A stretch of 64,000 nt of DNA, taken from Nitratiruptor sp. YY08-10 (GTDB taxonomy: Bacteria; Campylobacterota; Campylobacteria; Campylobacterales; Nitratiruptoraceae). The stretch covers positions 248,001-312,000 of the forward strand of contig NZ_AP023057.1 of NCBI RefSeq assembly GCF_016629565.1, written 5' to 3'. A model generated the notes under the pieces. That model saw nothing but the letters and a program-made list of their open reading frames with translations, ran no database searches and was not told where the DNA came from. The position numbers and the translations under genes are program-made. Shown here one piece after another: positions 11,972 through 25,658 of this stretch. Positions within the stretch are counted from its first letter, which is position 1. Each line of letters opens with the position of its first letter.

Positions 11972-12809
11972 ATTTGTTGGAGCACATGTAAGTGCAAGCG
12001 GAGGTGTGGAAAATGCACCAAAAAATGCACAAAATATCGGAGCAAAAGCTTTTGCACTTTTTACAAAAAATCAACGTCAATGGAAAGCAAAATCTCTTAC
12101 ACAAGAAAACATCGAAAAGTTTGATGAGCATCTGGAGTGTTGTGGTATTGAGAAAAAGCATATCTTGCCTCATGATAGCTATTTGATTAACCTTGGCCAT
12201 CCGGAAGATGAGAAACGACAAAAAAGTTTGGAAGCTTTCTTGGATGAAGTTCATCGGTGTGAACAGCTGGGATTGGATAAACTCAACTTTCATCCAGGAA
12301 GCCATCTGAAAAAGATCAGTGAAGAGGAGTGTCTGGATAGGATTGCCGATGCGATGAACGAGACGCTTCGCCAAAGCAGCGGAGTGACACTGGTTATAGA
12401 AAATACAGCCGGACAGGGGAGCAATCTTGGTTACAAATTTGAACACTTGCGCTATTTGATTGATAAATCGATTGACAAATCCAGAGTTGGGGTTTGTTTG
12501 GATACAGCGCATATGTTTGCGGCTGGATACGATATCAGAACAAAAGAGGCGTATGATAAAACGATGCAAGCCTTTGATGAAATTGTAGGATTTGAGTATC
12601 TCAAAGGGATGCATATCAATGATTCCAAAGCCAAATTTGCTTCTCGTGTGGATAGGCATCATTCGCTTGGCAAAGGGGAGATAGGATTGGACGTTTTTCG
12701 TTTTATCATGAACGATCCAAGACTTGATGATATTCCTTTGATTTTGGAAACTATTGATGATACTATATGGGATAAAGAGATTGAACTTCTCTATTCATTT
12801 GTGGAGTGA
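11964..12809 (+). CDS. nfo: Endonuclease IV (AP endonuclease)
   Basis: 281 residues, the usual length. Metal-binding signatures of the TIM-barrel family are in order: GAHVSASGG (His7), [50 protein letters not shown] and LETID. It cleaves abasic sites in base excision repair, using three zinc ions. It is coupled to the lipoprotein upstream and to the AAA ATPase downstream. Confidence 0.96.
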
Positions 12810-12811
12810 GA

Positions 12812-14542
12812 ATGGAACTGTTGCGTGATTTCATTGAAACAAAAAAGGTTGAAAAGAGTAAGATCTTTCCTCATCTCAAATGCAGTGCAGAAGAGGCGAA
12901 AATTTTACAGCTTTTAACCAAAAAATATATCAGCGGCATTGATGAAGTCAATGTGTATGATCTTTTGAGCGAACTGTATGGAGAAGATAGCTATCTCTAT
13001 TTAGAAAAACTCGATCTCATCAAGAAACTGTTCGATCTTGGCTGGCTTGTACAGGGTGGTTTTGGGGCGCTCAAAAGCAACGACTATACGAAACTGGAGC
13101 TATTACATACCGATGTGGCATTGAGTGTGCCGTTTTTGAGACTGCTTGAAGAGGGAAACGTAGAGCTTGCTTTGCCTGACATTAAGCCTTACAACGATCA
13201 TTTGGACTATTTTCAAGATCAATTTTTTCGTATAGAGCTCTATCAAAAGATTGTGCAGGCACGACAAAATTATAGTACTGATGCGCCGACAATCAACCGT
13301 TTGAAAAATAAGATCAATCTTTTGGAGACAAGAATACAGGAGCGATTGCAGGTTACCAAAAACGAAATCGTTGTAGAGGAGCTTTTCAAAGAGTATGATC
13401 TTTCACCAAAAGAGCGGATTATCTTTTTGGCTCTTTTGAAGGAGGAGTATGCAGGAACCGAAGGGGGACTTCGGGAGATGAATGCACTCATTGATCTGAT
13501 CAGTTTCAACGAGTACGAAAGAATTGAAAATAGAACGCTTTTGGAGGAGAGCTCCAAGCTTGTTTCATCGGGACTCATTGATTATGACGAGATTTTGACT
13601 CCTTTTGGTGGTCTTTCACGGAGCTTTTTCATCGTTGAAGATGTGATGCAGCGCATCATTCATCCAGACAAGAAGCGAAACAAAAAGATAAAACTTCAAA
13701 ATTTGATCAAAGATCAAGACATTTTTGAACTGATTGAGCCAAAAACGACCCTGGATGACGTGGTGCTGCATCCTCAAACAAGAAAAACGCTCGATAGTCT
13801 TTTAAATCAAATGGATAAGCGTGTAGCAGAAAGACTCAAAAAATGGGGAATCAAACCAAAACGAAAAGGGATCGATGCCAGAATCATTTTTTACGGACCT
13901 CCAGGAACCGGAAAAACGCTGACAGCCCTTTCGTTGGCAAAGTCTCTTAAGAAACAGGTACTCAGTTTTGACTGCTCAAAAATATTGTCCATGTATGTAG
14001 GTGAGAGTGAGAAAAATGTAAGGAAAATTTTTGATACCTATAAAGAGTTGAGCTCCAAGGCAAAAACGGAGCCGGTCCTTTTGCTCAATGAAGCGGATCA
14101 GTTTCTGAGTGCGAGAACGCAAGGACCCGGAAGCAGTGCAGATAAGATGCACAACCAGATGCAAAATATCTTTTTGGAGCAGATCGAAAATTTTGAGGGA
14201 GTACTCATTGCTACGACCAATCTTCTTGAAACGATCGATCCGGCTTTTTCTAGACGATTCAACTATAAAATAGAATTTAAAAAACCAAATTTCAAAGAAA
14301 GAGTCCGTCTTTGGGAGATGATGCTTCCCAAAAATGCCGAATTTGAAGAGGGATTCGATATCGAAAAACTGGCCTCTTATGAATTGACAGGCGGTCAGAT
14401 CAATATCGTCATCAAAAATACGGCCTATAAAGTAGCTGTCAAGGAGAATCCCGTTTTTACTTTGAAAGATTTTGTGGAAGAGATTGAAAAAGAGAAGGTA
14501 AGTGCCTTTGGAGATGAGAAATCTCTGGGGTTTTTAAAATAG
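12812..14542 (+). CDS. AAA-family ATPase
   Basis: About 576 residues. The N-terminal 300 residues are helical and unrecognised. A single AAA module follows: Walker A GPPGTGKT at about 361-368, Walker B VLLLNEAD at about 420-427 (Asn-Glu-Ala-Asp rather than the usual DExD), and sensor/Arg-finger region IATTNLLETIDPAFSRRF. Such proteins remodel or unfold partners; the substrate is unknown. The ATG at 12812 has GGAG six bases upstream and is preferred to GTG at 12806. Confidence 0.85.
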   Translation: MELLRDFIETKKVEKSKIFPHLKCSAEEAKILQLLTKKYISGIDEVNVYDLLSELYGEDSYLYLEKLDLIKKLFDLGWLVQGGFGALKSNDYTKLELLHTDVALSVPFLRLLEEGNVELALPDIKPYNDHLDYFQDQFFRIELYQKIVQARQNYSTDAPTINRLKNKINLLETRIQERLQVTKNEIVVEELFKEYDLSPKERIIFLALLKEEYAGTEGGLREMNALIDLISFNEYERIENRTLLEESSKLVSSGLIDYDEILTPFGGLSRSFFIVEDVMQRIIHPDKKRNKKIKLQNLIKDQDIFELIEPKTTLDDVVLHPQTRKTLDSLLNQMDKRVAERLKKWGIKPKRKGIDARIIFYGPPGTGKTLTALSLAKSLKKQVLSFDCSKILSMYVGESEKNVRKIFDTYKELSSKAKTEPVLLLNEADQFLSARTQGPGSSADKMHNQMQNIFLEQIENFEGVLIATTNLLETIDPAFSRRFNYKIEFKKPNFKERVRLWEMMLPKNAEFEEGFDIEKLASYELTGGQINIVIKNTAYKVAVKENPVFTLKDFVEEIEKEKVSAFGDEKSLGFLK

Positions 14543-17859: not shown

Positions 17860-19902
17860 GTGAGTAAAGTATATTTTTCGACGTGGAAAGATGAGCTTAT
17901 CGACAATCGGGGAAAACCGAAAGAAGAATGGGTAGAGTCTGCTTTCAACTTTCCAGTCCAGTACAATACCGATATTGATTCAAAAGCCTTTATCGGATGG
18001 GCCGGTATTGCGCTCATGAGCGAAGATGTAGATGTGGTCAAACTTGCGACAGAATACGCCAAACAGTACCAAGTCTACTCAGAAGCGTGCGGAAGATGCG
18101 CTCCAGGAAGATGGGGGGGACGGATTTTATACGATCTATTTGACAAGATTGCCAGAGGAGAAGGCGAGAAGAGTGACGTAGATCATCTCAAAGAGGTTTC
18201 CAAAACGATGATGGAAACCAGCAAATGTGAGATAGGTCGTACCGTTCCAAAGCCGCTTCTTGATATATTGGAGCATTTTTCCGATGAAATCGATGAGTTG
18301 ATTCAAAATAAAAAACCTTCCAAATACTATAACAATCCTGAAATCAGCTACATAGCAAAAGTAACGGCTCCATGCATGGATGCCTGCCCGAGTCACGTGG
18401 ATATTCCAGCGTATATTGAGGGAGTTCGGGATCTACGATATGACGACAGTTTAATGGCAACACGAAAAACGATGCCACTTGCACATACTTGTGGTCGAGT
18501 CTGCCCGCACCCGTGTGAAGATGAGTGTAGAAGGGCGAACCTGGATGAGCCGATCTCCATTATGGAATTGAAGCGAATCGGAGCTGATTTTGAGGATGAA
18601 CATGGCCTTTTTTGGCTCCATCCTAAAAAACAAAAACCGCTCAATGGTAAAAAAGTTGCCATCATAGGAGCCGGTCCTGCTGGACTAGCGGGAGCCTATT
18701 ATCTGGCTCTTGAAGGAGTGGCATGTGATGTGTATGAAGAGTTGCCGGTACTTGGTGGAGAAGTAGCTGTAGGTGTTCCACAGTATCGAATGCCGGTAGA
18801 AAAATACAATAAAGACATAGAAGCGGTCGCATCGCTCGAAGGGGTTCGCTTTATCACCGGTAAGCGGGTTACGGCAGATGATATGAGAAAATTTGAAAAA
18901 GAGTATGACGCTATTTTGATAGCGACAGGAACAAGAATTTCCAAAAAAGTTCGCGCAAAGAATGAGCGAGATGAGATCAAAGGGTATTGGCCAGCCATCA
19001 ATTTCCTTGATTGTATCAACCTTTATGTCAAATATGGGATTCCTGTACCAAAAGAGATTCAAGAAAAACAGCATCTCAACACAGATTATGTGGATTTGAC
19101 AGGAAAGACGCTGGTATGTGTTGGTGGGGGGTTTACCTCCATGGACGTGGTTCGATGTGCCGTACGGGCCAATGCAAAAAAAGTGATTATGCTCTATCGT
19201 CGGGATGAAGCAACTATCATTCGAAATACCACCTATGAAGAGTACCATGAAGCTGTGGAAGAGGGTGTGGAGTTTATTTTCTATTCTGCTGTTGAAGAGA
19301 TTATTACCGATGAAAACGACAACTTGAAAGCATTGAAAGTCAACCGATTTGAACTTATTCCCGATCCAAACGGTGGTCGACCACAACTTAAAAAGATAGA
19401 GGGTGCAGATTTTACAATTGAATGTGATTATTTGGTACCTGCTGTGAGCCAAAGTGCAGATCTCTCTCATCTGCCTGAAGAGTGGGAGATAGAGCTGACA
19501 AGCTGGGGTACCATCAAAACGGATGGTAAAACCTATATGAGTTCAAAAAAAGGCGTTTTTGCAGCAGGAGACTGCGAATATGGTCCGATGACTATCGTCA
19601 ATGCAGTAGGACAGGCTAAACGCGCAGCTAGTGTCATCAGTCGTTATGTTCAAACAGGTGAAGTGACTCTTACGGATGAAGAGATCATGGAAGATCATTT
19701 GAGAGCATTGAAAGTATATGACAAAAAAGAAAAGATTACAGGTTGGCTTCCCGGACTTCCAAGACAGGTGAGCGAAAAACTGACAGTTGAGGAGCGAAAA
19801 TCCACTCAACTTGAAGTGAATCTTGGTTTTACCCAAGAGCAGGCGATTGCAGAGGCAGAGCGGTGTATGCGATGTTACTATATCGCTATGGTAGCGGTGT
19901 AA
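17860..19902 (+). CDS. Complex I electron-input flavoprotein: NuoF C-terminal-like domain fused to GltD-type FAD/NAD(P) oxidoreductase
   Basis: 680 residues. At about 70-145 lies a NuoF-type iron-sulfur region (ACGRCAPGRWGG ... TSKCEIGR); the third Cys of the usual CGxCxPC motif is Gly here. At about 165-230 is a GltD-type 4Fe-4S domain (APCMDACPSH, CGRVCPHPCEDEC). Then come an FAD Rossmann motif (VAIIGAGPAGLAGA, about 265), a second nucleotide fold (VCVGGGFTSMD, about 420) and FAAGDCEYGPMT. The FMN/NADH domain of NuoF is absent. It probably feeds NAD(P)H electrons through FAD into NuoG. The start is GTG at 17860, eight bases after AGGGGG. Confidence 0.85.
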   Translation: MSKVYFSTWKDELIDNRGKPKEEWVESAFNFPVQYNTDIDSKAFIGWAGIALMSEDVDVVKLATEYAKQYQVYSEACGRCAPGRWGGRILYDLFDKIARGEGEKSDVDHLKEVSKTMMETSKCEIGRTVPKPLLDILEHFSDEIDELIQNKKPSKYYNNPEISYIAKVTAPCMDACPSHVDIPAYIEGVRDLRYDDSLMATRKTMPLAHTCGRVCPHPCEDECRRANLDEPISIMELKRIGADFEDEHGLFWLHPKKQKPLNGKKVAIIGAGPAGLAGAYYLALEGVACDVYEELPVLGGEVAVGVPQYRMPVEKYNKDIEAVASLEGVRFITGKRVTADDMRKFEKEYDAILIATGTRISKKVRAKNERDEIKGYWPAINFLDCINLYVKYGIPVPKEIQEKQHLNTDYVDLTGKTLVCVGGGFTSMDVVRCAVRANAKKVIMLYRRDEATIIRNTTYEEYHEAVEEGVEFIFYSAVEEIITDENDNLKALKVNRFELIPDPNGGRPQLKKIEGADFTIECDYLVPAVSQSADLSHLPEEWEIELTSWGTIKTDGKTYMSSKKGVFAAGDCEYGPMTIVNAVGQAKRAASVISRYVQTGEVTLTDEEIMEDHLRALKVYDKKEKITGWLPGLPRQVSEKLTVEERKSTQLEVNLGFTQEQAIAEAERCMRCYYIAMVAV

Positions 19903-19911
19903 AGGTAGAGC

Positions 19912-22188
19912 ATGGTTAAGTTTACAATAGATGGAAGAACAGTTACCGCCCAAAAGGGTGAAACTATTTTACAAGTAGCACGACGAGAGGGGATCTATAT
20001 TCCTACAATGTGCTATTTGACAAAAGTAAAGCCTATCGAATCATGCAGACTCTGCGTTGTAGAGGTCGAAGGAGTTGAGGGGTTTGTTCTCAGTTGTCAA
20101 ACTCCAGTTGTACCAGATATTAAAGTGCGAACAAACTCTGAAGAGCTTTATAAACATCGACAAAACATCATGCGCCTTTATGATGTGAACCATCCACTAG
20201 AGTGTGGCGTATGTGATAAGAGTGGCGAGTGTGATCTTCAAAACAAGACCTTGGAGTTCGGAGTCGATACGCAAGAGTTTACTGCAAAGGATCAATATCG
20301 ACCAATCCAAAAATGGAACTACATCCAGTATGATCCGAGTCTATGTATTTTATGTGAAAAATGTGTGCATGTATGCAATGAAGTGATTGGTGATGATGCT
20401 ATCGAGATCGAATATGGCGGATATAAATCAAAAATTGTTCCTAAAAATGCCGAAACGCTTGATTGTACATTCTGTGGAGAGTGTATTGCAGTCTGTCCGG
20501 TAGGCGCACTTATAAGCAGTGATTTCAAATATACCTCCAATGCATGGGAACTTCAAAGGATCCCAGCGGCTTGCGCACACTGTAGTGCAGCATGTCATCT
20601 GTATTATGAGGTAAAACACTCTTCAATCGAAAATCTCGAGCCAAAGATTTACCGTGTGAAAAATGAGTTTGAATTTGAAACACTGTGTGGGGCAGGACGA
20701 TTTGGATTCGATTTTGAAAATAGAGCCAAAAAGGATGAAAAAGCTTTTGAAAACGCTTTAGAAGCGTTCAAAAAAGCGGATACGATTCGATTTACTTCCT
20801 ATATTACCAATGAAGAGGCATATATTCTTCAGAAGCTCAAAGAAAAATTTGGCTATAAACTCATCAATGAAGAGGCAAGAAACTATCAAAAATTTTTGCA
20901 AAACTATGCAGCATATAGCGGAAAAAGCCTTTATAGTGCAGATTTAAGAAGAGTTGAAATAAGTGATTTTATTGTACTTTTGGGAAGTTTTGCCTCTTCA
21001 GACAATCCTGCTGTGCGTTATGCATTTACCGTGGCACATAAACAAAGAAACGCACAAATCATCAATATGCATCCGGTGGAAGACGATCTTTTAAAACCAA
21101 TCGTTACCAAATTTGTCAAATATGAAGTTGGAAGTGAAGAAGCGGTTATGGGAATGCTGCTTGATGCGCTCCTTAGTGAAGAGGCAAAATCCAAAATTGA
21201 TCAAAAATGGTTTGATGAACTCGATATGGGTTACCTCAGTGCGGAATCAAGTGTGGGGGAAGAGGAGATCGAAGATATCTTAGCAAAACTGAACCGCAAA
21301 AAAAGACTGAAAGAAGATAGGTTTACACTCATACTTGGAGAGGATTTGTACGCACATCCAAGAGCGGAGAATATAGCGAGACTGGCTGGGTTGATCGATC
21401 GATTTACAGAGTTCGAGGTGATGATCATACCACCAAAGACAAACAGTCTGGGCGTAGCACTCATTTGTGACCTGGATGATGAGGATGGTGCGTACAGTAT
21501 AGGCTACAACACGAAAGGGGACTTTACACTGAGCGCTTTGGGTGATGGCGATTTGGATATGCCAGCTCTCAACCAACAAGAGGGGACTTTTACCAATATC
21601 GATAGACGGGTAGTACCGACAAACGTAGCATTGCCATATGAGGGCTATGTACTAAACGATATTGCAAGAGCTCTCGGAGTGAGTGATAAAGAGTATACAA
21701 TAGAATTTACAAAAGAGCTTCCACAAGAGAAGGGGTATCAACCAATAGCGTTCGATGATCTGCCAAACGAGTTTTTAAATGATGGAAGCGAGCGGCGAGG
21801 GTACGTGATCGAGCCACAAAGAGTGAATTTGTCAAGAAAGAACGTTGAGCCGATAGCTGAGCTGCCGGAATTCAACGGTACAGTGGTCTATCGATGTGAG
21901 CCGGTTTTGCAGTTTAGCCCGTTCACCAACAAAGCGCATCAGTTGAATTGGTCCTGTGAGCTGATAGGATCGCAGCAGTTTTCCATAGCTGCCAAACTGA
22001 GCGATGGAGATCAAGTTATTATTCAAACAAAATTTGGTGCAATAGCAAAAACATTTCGTATCGATCCTAAATTAAAGGGTACAGTTGCCCTATTAGGAGT
22101 GAGTGATATGGGGATAGAGTATTTTGATATGCAGTCATCCTACAGATATGAACGAGTAAAAATCACAAAGAGAGCGGATCATGAGTGA
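19912..22188 (+). CDS. nuoG: NADH-quinone oxidoreductase subunit G, copy 1
   Basis: 758 residues. The N-terminal [2Fe-2S] ferredoxin domain (CYLTKVKP, SCRLCVVEV) precedes a His-Cys cluster region (HPLECGVCDKSGECDLQ), a 2x4Fe-4S domain (CILCEKCVHVC; CTFCGECIAVCPVGAL), an extra cluster motif (CAHCSAAC) and a molybdopterin-oxidoreductase-like body. It carries electrons within the peripheral arm. Two regions are near-identical in DNA to nuoG2 (see repeats). Its stop overlaps the nuoG2 start by 8 bases. Confidence 0.93.
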   Translation: MVKFTIDGRTVTAQKGETILQVARREGIYIPTMCYLTKVKPIESCRLCVVEVEGVEGFVLSCQTPVVPDIKVRTNSEELYKHRQNIMRLYDVNHPLECGVCDKSGECDLQNKTLEFGVDTQEFTAKDQYRPIQKWNYIQYDPSLCILCEKCVHVCNEVIGDDAIEIEYGGYKSKIVPKNAETLDCTFCGECIAVCPVGALISSDFKYTSNAWELQRIPAACAHCSAACHLYYEVKHSSIENLEPKIYRVKNEFEFETLCGAGRFGFDFENRAKKDEKAFENALEAFKKADTIRFTSYITNEEAYILQKLKEKFGYKLINEEARNYQKFLQNYAAYSGKSLYSADLRRVEISDFIVLLGSFASSDNPAVRYAFTVAHKQRNAQIINMHPVEDDLLKPIVTKFVKYEVGSEEAVMGMLLDALLSEEAKSKIDQKWFDELDMGYLSAESSVGEEEIEDILAKLNRKKRLKEDRFTLILGEDLYAHPRAENIARLAGLIDRFTEFEVMIIPPKTNSLGVALICDLDDEDGAYSIGYNTKGDFTLSALGDGDLDMPALNQQEGTFTNIDRRVVPTNVALPYEGYVLNDIARALGVSDKEYTIEFTKELPQEKGYQPIAFDDLPNEFLNDGSERRGYVIEPQRVNLSRKNVEPIAELPEFNGTVVYRCEPVLQFSPFTNKAHQLNWSCELIGSQQFSIAAKLSDGDQVIIQTKFGAIAKTFRIDPKLKGTVALLGVSDMGIEYFDMQSSYRYERVKITKRADHE
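21325..21942 (+). repeat. 618-bp block shared by nuoG1 and nuoG2 (copy in nuoG1)
   Basis: Line-by-line reading shows the same 618 bases here and at 23816-24433 (offset 2491), with no difference found, including at silent codon positions. Outside the block the two genes diverge at once. A second, shorter shared part is at 20692-20880 versus 23033-23221 (offset 2341), with an 86-base perfect run (20743-20828). Confidence 0.93.
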
Positions 22189-24664
22189 AAAGATTAAGAT
22201 TACGATTGATGGAAAAGAGTGTGAAACGGTAGCAGGCGAGTACGTTCTCAATGTAGCCAGAGCCAACGGTATTTTTATTCCTGCCATCTGTTACCTAACA
22301 GGTTGCTCTCCGACGCTGGCATGTAGGCTTTGCCTTGTAGAAGCAGATGGTAAGCAGGTCTATGCGTGTAATGCCAAAGCCAAAGATGGTATGAATATCG
22401 TTACCGTCACGGAAAATATTCTTAAAGAGCGCCGTGCCATCATGGAAGTCTATGATGTGAACCACCCATTGGAGTGCGGCGTATGTGATCAAAGTGGCGA
22501 ATGCGAGTTGCAAAACTATACATTAGAGATGAAAGTGGATGAGCAGCACTATGCCATTCGAGACACCTATAGGCCAGTCAAAAAATGGAATTTTATCCAT
22601 TATGACTCGTCACTCTGTATCGTGTGTGAGCGTTGTGTGACTGTTTGTAAGGATATGATAGGCGATGCGGCGCTAAAAACCGTTCCACGGGGCGGAGACA
22701 AGCTTGGCAAAGAGTGGAAAGATGAGATGCCAAAAGACGCCTATGCTATGTGGAACAAACTGCAAAAATCGATTATCGGAGCGGTTACAGGAGATCAGCT
22801 TGATTGTACATGGTGTGGTGAATGTATCAGTGTCTGTCCGGTTGGAGCACTGGTGAGCGAAGATTATCACTATACGACTAACTCTTGGGAACTTACAAAA
22901 ATTCCAGCGGCCTGTGCACATTGTAGTGCTACCTGCCACATGTACTATGAAACGAAACACACCTCTATCGAAAACCCTGAACCAAAAATCTACCGCGTCA
23001 CAAATGAGTTTCATTATCAGCCGCTATGCGGAGCAGGACGATTTGGATTTGATTTTGAAAACAAGGCCAAAAAGGATGAAAAGGCTTTTGAAAACGCTTT
23101 AGAAGCGTTCAAAAAAGCGGATACGATTCGATTTACTTCCTATATTACCAATGAAGAGGCATATATTCTCCAGAAGCTCAAAGAAAAATTTGACTATAAA
23201 CTCATCAATGAGGATGCCAAACAGTATAAGCAGTTTTTAGAAAATTTCAGTCAATACAGCGGAAAATCATTACCAACAGCCGATGTGAAAACAATCCATA
23301 ATAGTCAATTTGTAGTTTCTATAGGGACAGCATTGAAAAGTGACAATCCGAGAGTACGGTTTGCGTTTAACAATGCTGTAAAAATGAATAAAGGCGGAGG
23401 AATCTATTTTCATCCTATAAAAGATCCGGTCATAGAGTCTCTTGGAAAAACAGTTGTGCCTGTTTATCACAAACCGTTAAAAGAAGAGGCTGCACTCTAT
23501 CTTATATTGCAAGAATTTGGTGATAAAGAGAAATTACCAAAATATGTGAAAGAGTATCTTGATTCGTTGATGGTTACAAAAACCAAAGAGATTGAGGAGA
23601 CGATTAAGGAAAAAGTTGTCGAGATTGTTGAAGAGACGATCGTTGATGAAAAAACGGGCAAAGAGAAAAAAGTTCAGAAAAAAGTAGAAAAAGAGGTACC
23701 CAAAAAGGTCAAAAAAGAGGTTGAGTATCAGGTGAGCAAACTTTATGACATGCTTGATGCTCCTGAAGAGTTGATGGAAAAATTGAGTAAAGTGCTATCA
23801 AAAGCTGAAAAATTCACACTCATACTTGGAGAGGATTTGTACGCACATCCAAGAGCGGAGAATATAGCGAGACTGGCTGGGTTGATCGATCGATTTACAG
23901 AGTTCGAGGTGATGATCATACCACCAAAGACAAACAGTCTGGGCGTAGCACTCATTTGTGACCTGGATGATGAGGATGGTGCGTACAGTATAGGCTACAA
24001 CACGAAAGGGGACTTTACACTGAGCGCTTTGGGTGATGGCGATTTGGATATGCCAGCTCTCAACCAACAAGAGGGGACTTTTACCAATATCGATAGACGG
24101 GTAGTACCGACAAACGTAGCATTGCCATATGAGGGCTATGTACTAAACGATATTGCAAGAGCTCTCGGAGTGAGTGATAAAGAGTATACAATAGAATTTA
24201 CAAAAGAGCTTCCACAAGAGAAGGGGTATCAACCAATAGCGTTCGATGATCTGCCAAACGAGTTTTTAAATGATGGAAGCGAGCGGCGAGGGTACGTGAT
24301 CGAGCCACAAAGAGTGAATTTGTCAAGAAAGAACGTTGAGCCGATAGCTGAGCTGCCGGAATTCAACGGTACAGTGGTCTATCGATGTGAGCCGGTTTTG
24401 CAGTTTAGCCCGTTCACCAACAAAGCGCATCAGCTAACAGAAAATGGCAAATTGTATGCAAGTGAAACATTTTTGAATGAATTGGGCCTTGAAGAGGGTG
24501 ATAAAGTAAACCTTCAAAAAGATGATACTAATATTACAGTAGAAGTTGCCCTTGATGACAAAATTGGATCGGGAGCCTATATAGGCACGTTTGATACAAA
24601 TATTGATATATCACCGCTTTTTGCGGGATATCGATTTAGCGAAGTACAAATTCAAAAGGTGTAA
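22181..24664 (+). CDS. nuoG: NADH-quinone oxidoreductase subunit G, copy 2
   Basis: 827 residues with the same domain order as copy 1. Two additions stand out: about 25 residues between the two 4Fe-4S motifs (region 22672-22790), and a Lys/Glu-rich insertion at about residues 465-520 (from 23570 to 23745) with alternating KEKV, KKVEKEV and KKVKKEV blocks. The C-terminal body then re-enters the sequence that is identical to copy 1. Two NuoG paralogs in one operon are known in some Campylobacterota; both may sit in the complex or in alternative versions. Confidence 0.92.
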   Translation: MSEKIKITIDGKECETVAGEYVLNVARANGIFIPAICYLTGCSPTLACRLCLVEADGKQVYACNAKAKDGMNIVTVTENILKERRAIMEVYDVNHPLECGVCDQSGECELQNYTLEMKVDEQHYAIRDTYRPVKKWNFIHYDSSLCIVCERCVTVCKDMIGDAALKTVPRGGDKLGKEWKDEMPKDAYAMWNKLQKSIIGAVTGDQLDCTWCGECISVCPVGALVSEDYHYTTNSWELTKIPAACAHCSATCHMYYETKHTSIENPEPKIYRVTNEFHYQPLCGAGRFGFDFENKAKKDEKAFENALEAFKKADTIRFTSYITNEEAYILQKLKEKFDYKLINEDAKQYKQFLENFSQYSGKSLPTADVKTIHNSQFVVSIGTALKSDNPRVRFAFNNAVKMNKGGGIYFHPIKDPVIESLGKTVVPVYHKPLKEEAALYLILQEFGDKEKLPKYVKEYLDSLMVTKTKEIEETIKEKVVEIVEETIVDEKTGKEKKVQKKVEKEVPKKVKKEVEYQVSKLYDMLDAPEELMEKLSKVLSKAEKFTLILGEDLYAHPRAENIARLAGLIDRFTEFEVMIIPPKTNSLGVALICDLDDEDGAYSIGYNTKGDFTLSALGDGDLDMPALNQQEGTFTNIDRRVVPTNVALPYEGYVLNDIARALGVSDKEYTIEFTKELPQEKGYQPIAFDDLPNEFLNDGSERRGYVIEPQRVNLSRKNVEPIAELPEFNGTVVYRCEPVLQFSPFTNKAHQLTENGKLYASETFLNELGLEEGDKVNLQKDDTNITVEVALDDKIGSGAYIGTFDTNIDISPLFAGYRFSEVQIQKV
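23816..24433 (+). repeat. 618-bp block shared by nuoG1 and nuoG2 (copy in nuoG2)
   Basis: Partner of 21325-21942, in direct orientation. The identity extends through codon third positions, as expected for recent gene conversion. Recombination between the copies would delete 2491 bp and leave one fused nuoG. Confidence 0.93.
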
Positions 24665-24665
24665 C

Positions 24666-25658
24666 ATGGATGCAGCGTTTGTTATAGCAACCATTCTTAA
24701 GATACTGATTGTACTGGGGCTTTTTTCGGCTTTGGCCGGATTTGGTACCTATGTAGAAAGAAAAGTACTTGCATTTATGCAACGCCGTCTTGGTCCGATG
24801 CATGTAGGACCATACGGATTGTTACAGGTTCTTGCTGACGGTATCAAGCTCTTTACGAAAGAGGATTTTGTACCGCAAGGAGCAGTACGCCCTGTTTTTA
24901 TGATAGCTCCGGTAATCACAGCGGCCACAGCTTTTATCGCTATGGCGGCGATTCCGATGTTTCCGGAATTTACAATCGGTGGATATACGGTTAAGCCGAT
25001 AATTTCTGATATCAATGTTGGATTGCTGTTTGTGTTAGGAGTAATGGCTGCTGGATTGTATGGACCATTGCTAGCTGGTATGTCTTCTGGAAACAAATGG
25101 GCGTTACTCGGTGCAGCTCGGACTGCGATCCAGTTTTTAAGCTATGAAGTTGTTACCGGACTTTCTGTTTTGGCACCAGTGATGATTGTAGGGTCCCTTT
25201 CATTGGTGGATTTTAACAATTACCAGGCAGGAGGCATAGGAAATTGGCTGATTTGGAAACAGCCTCTTGCATTTATTCTTTTCTTGATTGCAGGATATGC
25301 GGAGACAAACAGAACGCCGTTTGATTTACTAGAGCATGAAGCGGAAGTGATTTCAGGGTACGCTACAGAGTATAGCGGTATGCGATGGGGAATGTTTTTC
25401 ATCGGTGAATATGCAAACATGTTCACAATAGGATTTTTGGTTAGTCTCATTTTTCTTGGCGGATTCAATGATTGGGGATTTATTCCAGGTGCGATTGCTA
25501 TTTTGATCAAAGTCTTTTTCTTTTTCTTTCTTTTCTTGTGGACACGGGCATCCTGGCCGCATGTACGACCGGATCAATTGATGTGGCTCTGCTGGAAAGT
25601 ATTGATGCCTCTAGCGGTGATCAATGTAGTGATTACCGGTATTGTGATGAGTATCTAA
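24666..25658 (+). CDS. nuoH: NADH-quinone oxidoreductase subunit H
   Basis: 330 residues, about eight transmembrane helices. Family signatures are present: FGTYVERKVLAFMQRRLGPMHVGPYGLLQ near residues 25-55, and ETNRTPFDLLEHEAEVISGYATEYSG in the quinone-site loop. It joins the membrane and peripheral arms. The ATG at 24666 overlaps nothing and lies one base after the nuoG2 stop; longer frames run into nuoG2. Confidence 0.96.
   Translation: MDAAFVIATILKILIVLGLFSALAGFGTYVERKVLAFMQRRLGPMHVGPYGLLQVLADGIKLFTKEDFVPQGAVRPVFMIAPVITAATAFIAMAAIPMFPEFTIGGYTVKPIISDINVGLLFVLGVMAAGLYGPLLAGMSSGNKWALLGAARTAIQFLSYEVVTGLSVLAPVMIVGSLSLVDFNNYQAGGIGNWLIWKQPLAFILFLIAGYAETNRTPFDLLEHEAEVISGYATEYSGMRWGMFFIGEYANMFTIGFLVSLIFLGGFNDWGFIPGAIAILIKVFFFFFLFLWTRASWPHVRPDQLMWLCWKVLMPLAVINVVITGIVMSI

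Follow-up and report, generated by a model that had tools for sequence, protein, structure and literature searches.

In prokaryotes, 26 genes are on record as showing long-lasting concerted evolution, among them tuf and the nuoL gene of Aquificales (PMC6053082), and the release factors RF1 and RF2, which are differentiated paralogs, undergo gene conversion confined to domain 3 (PMC4530459). A tandem pair of nuoG genes in Nitratiruptor and its relatives resembles these systems in different respects. As in the tuf (EF-Tu) pair, duplicates are homogenised recurrently and lastingly in many species (PMC6053082; PMC5485169), although the tuf genes are nearly identical and encode the same product, whereas in nuoG two differentiated, adjacent genes are converted in part. 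As in RF1 and RF2, conversion appears to be confined to a domain with a common task in functionally different paralogs (PMC4530459); unlike those two separate cases, it recurs in tandem neighbours throughout a family and in two further families. The nuoL gene of Aquificales likewise encodes a complex I subunit and shows long-lasting concerted evolution (PMC6053082, Table 1), but it concerns another subunit and another phylum. The babA and babB genes of Helicobacter pylori, which belongs to the same phylum, also recombine as similar paralogs within one genome (PMC3444412), but they encode surface antigens and their recombination leads to antigenic variation, whereas nuoG encodes a respiratory subunit and the outcome is homogenisation.

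nuoG is absent from the 26 listed genes and from the whole text of PMC6053082, and an open-access search, with most subscription journals outside its scope, found no report of nuoG conversion. The type of process is known from tuf and from domain 3 of RF1 and RF2, and the nuoG pair and the long duration of its conversion appear to be undescribed. The nuoG case combines long-lasting concerted evolution with domain-limited conversion of differentiated paralogs.

The nuoG1–nuoG2 pair and its neighbours

The reference genome is that of Nitratiruptor sp. YY08-10 (G000), whose family, Nitratiruptor and its relatives, is labelled f1. The window is the whole stretch of 64 kb that was analysed, and the nuo features described here are on its + strand. 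nuoG1 (19912-22188, 758 aa) and nuoG2 (22181-24664, 827 aa) overlap by 8 bp, and these open reading frames match the NCBIfam model NF006305 for NuoG with 970 and 1269 bits, respectively (cut-off, 591). According to this curated family match, both products are NuoG, the 75-kDa-type subunit of complex I. Membership of the two proteins in complex I is suggested by the operon context, in which nuoC, nuoD and a NuoF/GltD-like gene lie 5' of the pair, and nuoH, nuoI, nuoK and nuoL 3' of it. The NuoF/GltD-like gene (17860-19902), in the position of nuoF, encodes a NuoF C-terminal Fe-S domain fused to a GltD-like NAD(P)H/FAD module (Pfam PF10589, PF14691 and PF07992), which may point to an input of electrons that differs from classic NuoEF. 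nuoH (Pfam PF00146) is contained in an open reading frame at 24591-25658, the true start of which is probably 3' of the listed TTG. Elsewhere in the window, 12806-14542 encodes an AAA ATPase-like protein of 578 aa with a sub-cut-off match to the model of the anti-phage ATPase IteA (109 bits; cut-off, 510).

The Fe-S cluster-binding part, recognised by its Cys positions, comprises residues 1-259 of NuoG1 (19912-20688) and residues 1-283 of NuoG2 (22181-23029). Both proteins retain Cys motifs that we take to be those of the N1b-, N5-, N4- and N7-type clusters, with positions computed from the sequences. In addition, both have four Cys residues beyond the usual clusters of complex I NuoG (NuoG1 residues 155, 185, 188 and 191), which would presumably fit an additional [4Fe-4S] cluster of the kind found in hydrogenases and formate dehydrogenases. 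The predicted structure of NuoG2 (mean pLDDT 80) resembles NuoG/Nqo3 of complex I and formate dehydrogenase chains; that of NuoG1 is weaker (mean pLDDT 67), and the Fe-S part is of low confidence in both models. A search by sequence against solved structures gave matches chiefly to the Fe-S part of NuoG2. In the pairwise alignment, NuoG2 has a charged insertion at residues ~464-519 (23570-23737) that is mostly a gap in NuoG1; it is rich in Glu and Lys and is predicted to form a long beta-hairpin, with strands at residues 464-488 and 495-519, partly at low confidence.

An identical block between diverged flanks

The original prediction claimed from the sequence of the locus that 21325-21942 of nuoG1 equals 23816-24433 of nuoG2, and direct comparison gives 0 mismatches in 618 positions. 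The block corresponds to residues ~472-677 of NuoG1 and, by maximal-segment analysis, to residues 546-751 of NuoG2, and its copies are direct repeats 2491 bp apart. A second, older converted segment (20692-20880 in nuoG1, 23033-23221 in nuoG2; maximal segment, NuoG2 residues 285-344), said to be nearly identical, has 11 mismatches in 189 positions. It begins directly 3' of the last Cys of the N7-type motif, which is residue 283 in NuoG2. Outside these segments, the identity falls immediately to the level of old paralogs, as abruptly as predicted, and the divergence noticed in the iron-sulfur parts and the C-termini is borne out: in G000, the copies share 54-71% of their nucleotides in the Fe-S part, 93% at NuoG2 residues 283-348, 39-52% at residues 348-530, 100% in the block, and 41-44% in the C-terminal parts (21943-22185 in nuoG1, 24434-24661 in nuoG2). 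We take the converted block to be the later half of a molybdopterin-oxidoreductase-like body and the diverged C-terminus to be its cap domain, an assignment based on the general fold of such proteins.

When the aligned codon columns were shuffled 2000 times, the longest exact run never exceeded 55 bp, against the 618 bp observed. No comparable repeat was found elsewhere in the window, including the ancient paralogs nuoL, nuoM and nuoN. The block in G000 has zero synonymous differences over ~138-139 sites, from which the 95% upper limit of dS is calculated to be ~0.022; the last conversion is therefore younger than ~4% of the divergence between G000 and G011, another member of f1.

Homogenisation across the family

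Complete nuoG1–nuoG2 pairs were compared in ten f1 genomes and 60 other genomes of the order, 70 altogether. The block (NuoG2 residues ~546-751) is 99-100% identical between the copies in seven of the ten f1 genomes (G000, G002, G004, G011, G016, G018 and G020), several of which are closed, and 94-99%, 90-99% and ~78% identical in G017, G008 and G015, respectively. The orthologous blocks are mostly 66-94% identical to that of G000, and the closely matching pair G016/G020 shares 97%. Silent sites, the comparison of which had been proposed as a check, give the same picture: the paralogous blocks have a dS of 0-0.024 in the seven genomes, 0.12 in G017, 0.24 in G008 and 2.05 in G015, against a dS between orthologs of 0.60 for G000 and G011 (57 synonymous changes), 0.13 for G016 and G020, and ~1.5 to saturated for the remaining f1 genomes relative to G000. 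The age of the block conversion ranges across f1 from none detectable to old (G015). Of the two terms in the original prediction, recent or continuing conversion, the latter fits better, since all ten pair-bearing genomes of f1 are affected to some degree.

For long-lasting concerted evolution, PMC6053082 looks for paralogs that are more alike within a genome than orthologs are between genomes, for shared synteny (which speaks against independent duplication), and for at least five species. At residues 547-705, the copies in G000 are 100% identical, compared with 90% to the best ortholog; the other f1 genomes behave likewise, with G015 borderline, and so do G022 (family f2) and G054 (f18). The tandem order nuoG1–nuoG2 is shared by the 70 genomes, and the Fe-S parts form two paralog clades with full support. 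Ten f1 genomes (G015 with an old event only) are involved in addition to G022 and G054.

Trees separate the two histories within the genes. In a tree of the N-flank/Fe-S region from 19 genomes, nuoG1 and nuoG2 form two clades (support 100/100), and in the block tree the copies of converted genomes pair by genome. The block tree of 24 rows requires 11 changes of paralog label, and forcing nuoG1 into a single clade lowers the log-likelihood by 1607 units, so that the AU test rejects it (p 0.0025). Across the order, a protein tree of the block built from 140 rows by a quick method keeps nuoG1 and nuoG2 apart in families f4, f6, f7 and f17, whereas f1, G022 and G054 group by genome, as does G109 (f15) on long branches. 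Conversion has therefore been persistent in f1 and has occurred elsewhere, although it is not universal.

Among the f1 members, only G015 has copies of the block that have drifted apart, and conversion seems to have lapsed there; at ~78% identity, conversion is evidently not obligatory. Perhaps the divergence had once passed a recombination threshold, after which the copies drifted apart.

Borders and the unconverted Fe-S part

In most f1 genomes, the maximal segments of high identity run from NuoG2 residues 543-549 to residues 751-755, G008 (residues 561-746) and G015 (fragmented) deviating from this. In the other families, the block of G054 is converted at residues 548-746 (3 mismatches in 602 bp) and part of it in G022 at residues 541-662 (1 mismatch in 365 bp). 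The ortholog comparison bears out the gene conversion originally proposed: the block is homogenised within genomes and diverged between them, its flanks remain at paralog identity, and this is repeated across lineages with near-constant borders. On the 5' side of the block there are the hairpin insertion of NuoG2 and poorly alignable sequence, and on the 3' side the C-terminus, where the copies have median identities of 36-52% by family, so that the outer borders fit the end of usable homology. Inverted repeats that might act as recombination signals were not present at the block edges.

The Fe-S part behaves differently. At residues 1-282, the copies are more alike than orthologs in none of the 70 genomes. 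Residues 200-282 have in f1 a median nucleotide identity of 72% between copies, a value that most of the block does not surpass in the majority of unconverted families, and thus the end of homology does not account for the unconverted Fe-S part. Among 58 unconverted genomes, columns diagnostic of NuoG1 or NuoG2 at a threshold of 70% number 28 in residues 1-199, one in the block and none in residues 283-345. From these alignments, the Fe-S part is probably shielded from conversion by selection. In G018, high identity extends 5' to residue 242, and the Fe-S border is accordingly soft, not absolute.

A model for recurrent conversion and its alternatives

The pair is very probably an old tandem duplicate in which recurrent, domain-limited conversion throughout f1 keeps the body block concerted within each species. 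The block (NuoG2 residues ~546-751) and, less often, residues ~283-345 would repeatedly be copied non-reciprocally between the genes by ordinary homologous recombination, presumably of the RecA type. Conversion would have outpaced synonymous change throughout f1, so that the copies evolve as one sequence per species. The outer borders would be set where alignable homology stops, at the hairpin insertion on the 5' side and the diverged C-terminal domain on the 3' side, and conversion of the Fe-S part would be purged by selection, presumably because the two Fe-S parts have separate roles, whereas the block is interchangeable. The converted sequence forms contiguous tracts. No direction of conversion is claimed, because in converted genomes the block leans slightly towards NuoG2 at residues 546-660 and towards NuoG1 at residues 661-751, and there is a single diagnostic column.

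A mutation rate near 2e-10 per site is assumed. In Salmonella, the measured rate of tuf conversion per cell and generation is 2e-8 in the presence of mismatch repair and 2e-5 in its absence (PMC5485169). The former rate and that mutation rate lead to an estimated divergence of ~0.01-0.02, close to that observed, and on this estimate ordinary recombination would suffice for the low divergence of the copies. Judged by MutS, lack of mismatch repair was rejected as a cause, as G000 and most of its relatives, G015 and unconverted genomes among them, encode a protein with the MutS_I domain.

It is also conceivable, though rather unlikely, that both NuoG proteins reside in one complex I with the block in the same or a pseudo-symmetric contact, and that conversion is kept by selection to let the subunits co-evolve. 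If so, the concerted evolution would act at the level of a domain and serve a structural purpose. In G015, dN between the block copies is 0.087, compared with ~0.09-0.12 between orthologs and with 0.10-0.12 for its orthologs with G000; copies that diverge like orthologs argue against a special demand for copy identity.

The recurrent conversion preferred here is taken to proceed without crossover. Unequal crossing over, i.e., triplication followed by contraction between the direct repeats, would homogenise the copies too, and repeats at this distance could recombine in such a way. G013 (L077) has a single gene with the start of nuoG1 and the end of nuoG2, as expected from a deletion. This route is nevertheless unlikely, as no locus with three nuoG genes was seen among the matches listed and nearly all genomes have exactly two in the same order.

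Assembly collapse, by which one consensus would have replaced two diverged blocks, typically happens at long direct repeats that are nearly identical. Most truncated nuoG1 genes among the matches listed break off within the block or else in the second segment or close to it (G001, G003, G010, G012, G021, G030, G047, G061, G085, G133 and G287; G005, G009 and G014), and few do so elsewhere (G042 and G166). The chimeric gene of G013 and the nuoG1 of G019 (L075), which has a nuoG2-like middle, could be mis-joins; either they are such or they are real recombination products. A real repeat would itself cause contig breaks in drafts, since exact repeats break short-read assembly, and the truncated genes suggest that the repeat is present in more species and families. 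Both copies are resolved in the one- or two-contig assemblies of G002, G004, G011, G016, G017 and G018, some with real differences between copies at a few positions, which makes collapse very improbable. It is hardly credible either that one recent conversion or partial duplication was confined to G000: the exact block without synonymous differences would agree with this, but in nine other f1 members the block has nearly equal borders and a sequence peculiar to that genome. The block is well conserved as a protein across the order, but purifying selection, whether on its protein or on its DNA, can practically be dismissed as a substitute for recombination: of ~138 synonymous sites in the block, 57 differ between the orthologs of G000 and G011 and none between the two copies in G000, and the dN between the copies in G015 matches that between orthologs.

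Implications

Recurrent domain-limited conversion at nuoG calls for caution, in that draft genomes of the group break or mis-join at nuoG and trees of whole NuoG proteins blend two histories. The pair provides a clean natural case in which homogenised and separately kept parts stand in one gene pair in several lineages, with the lapsed G015 as a control. For a duplicated subunit of complex I, it tells the interchangeable part from the one that is not.
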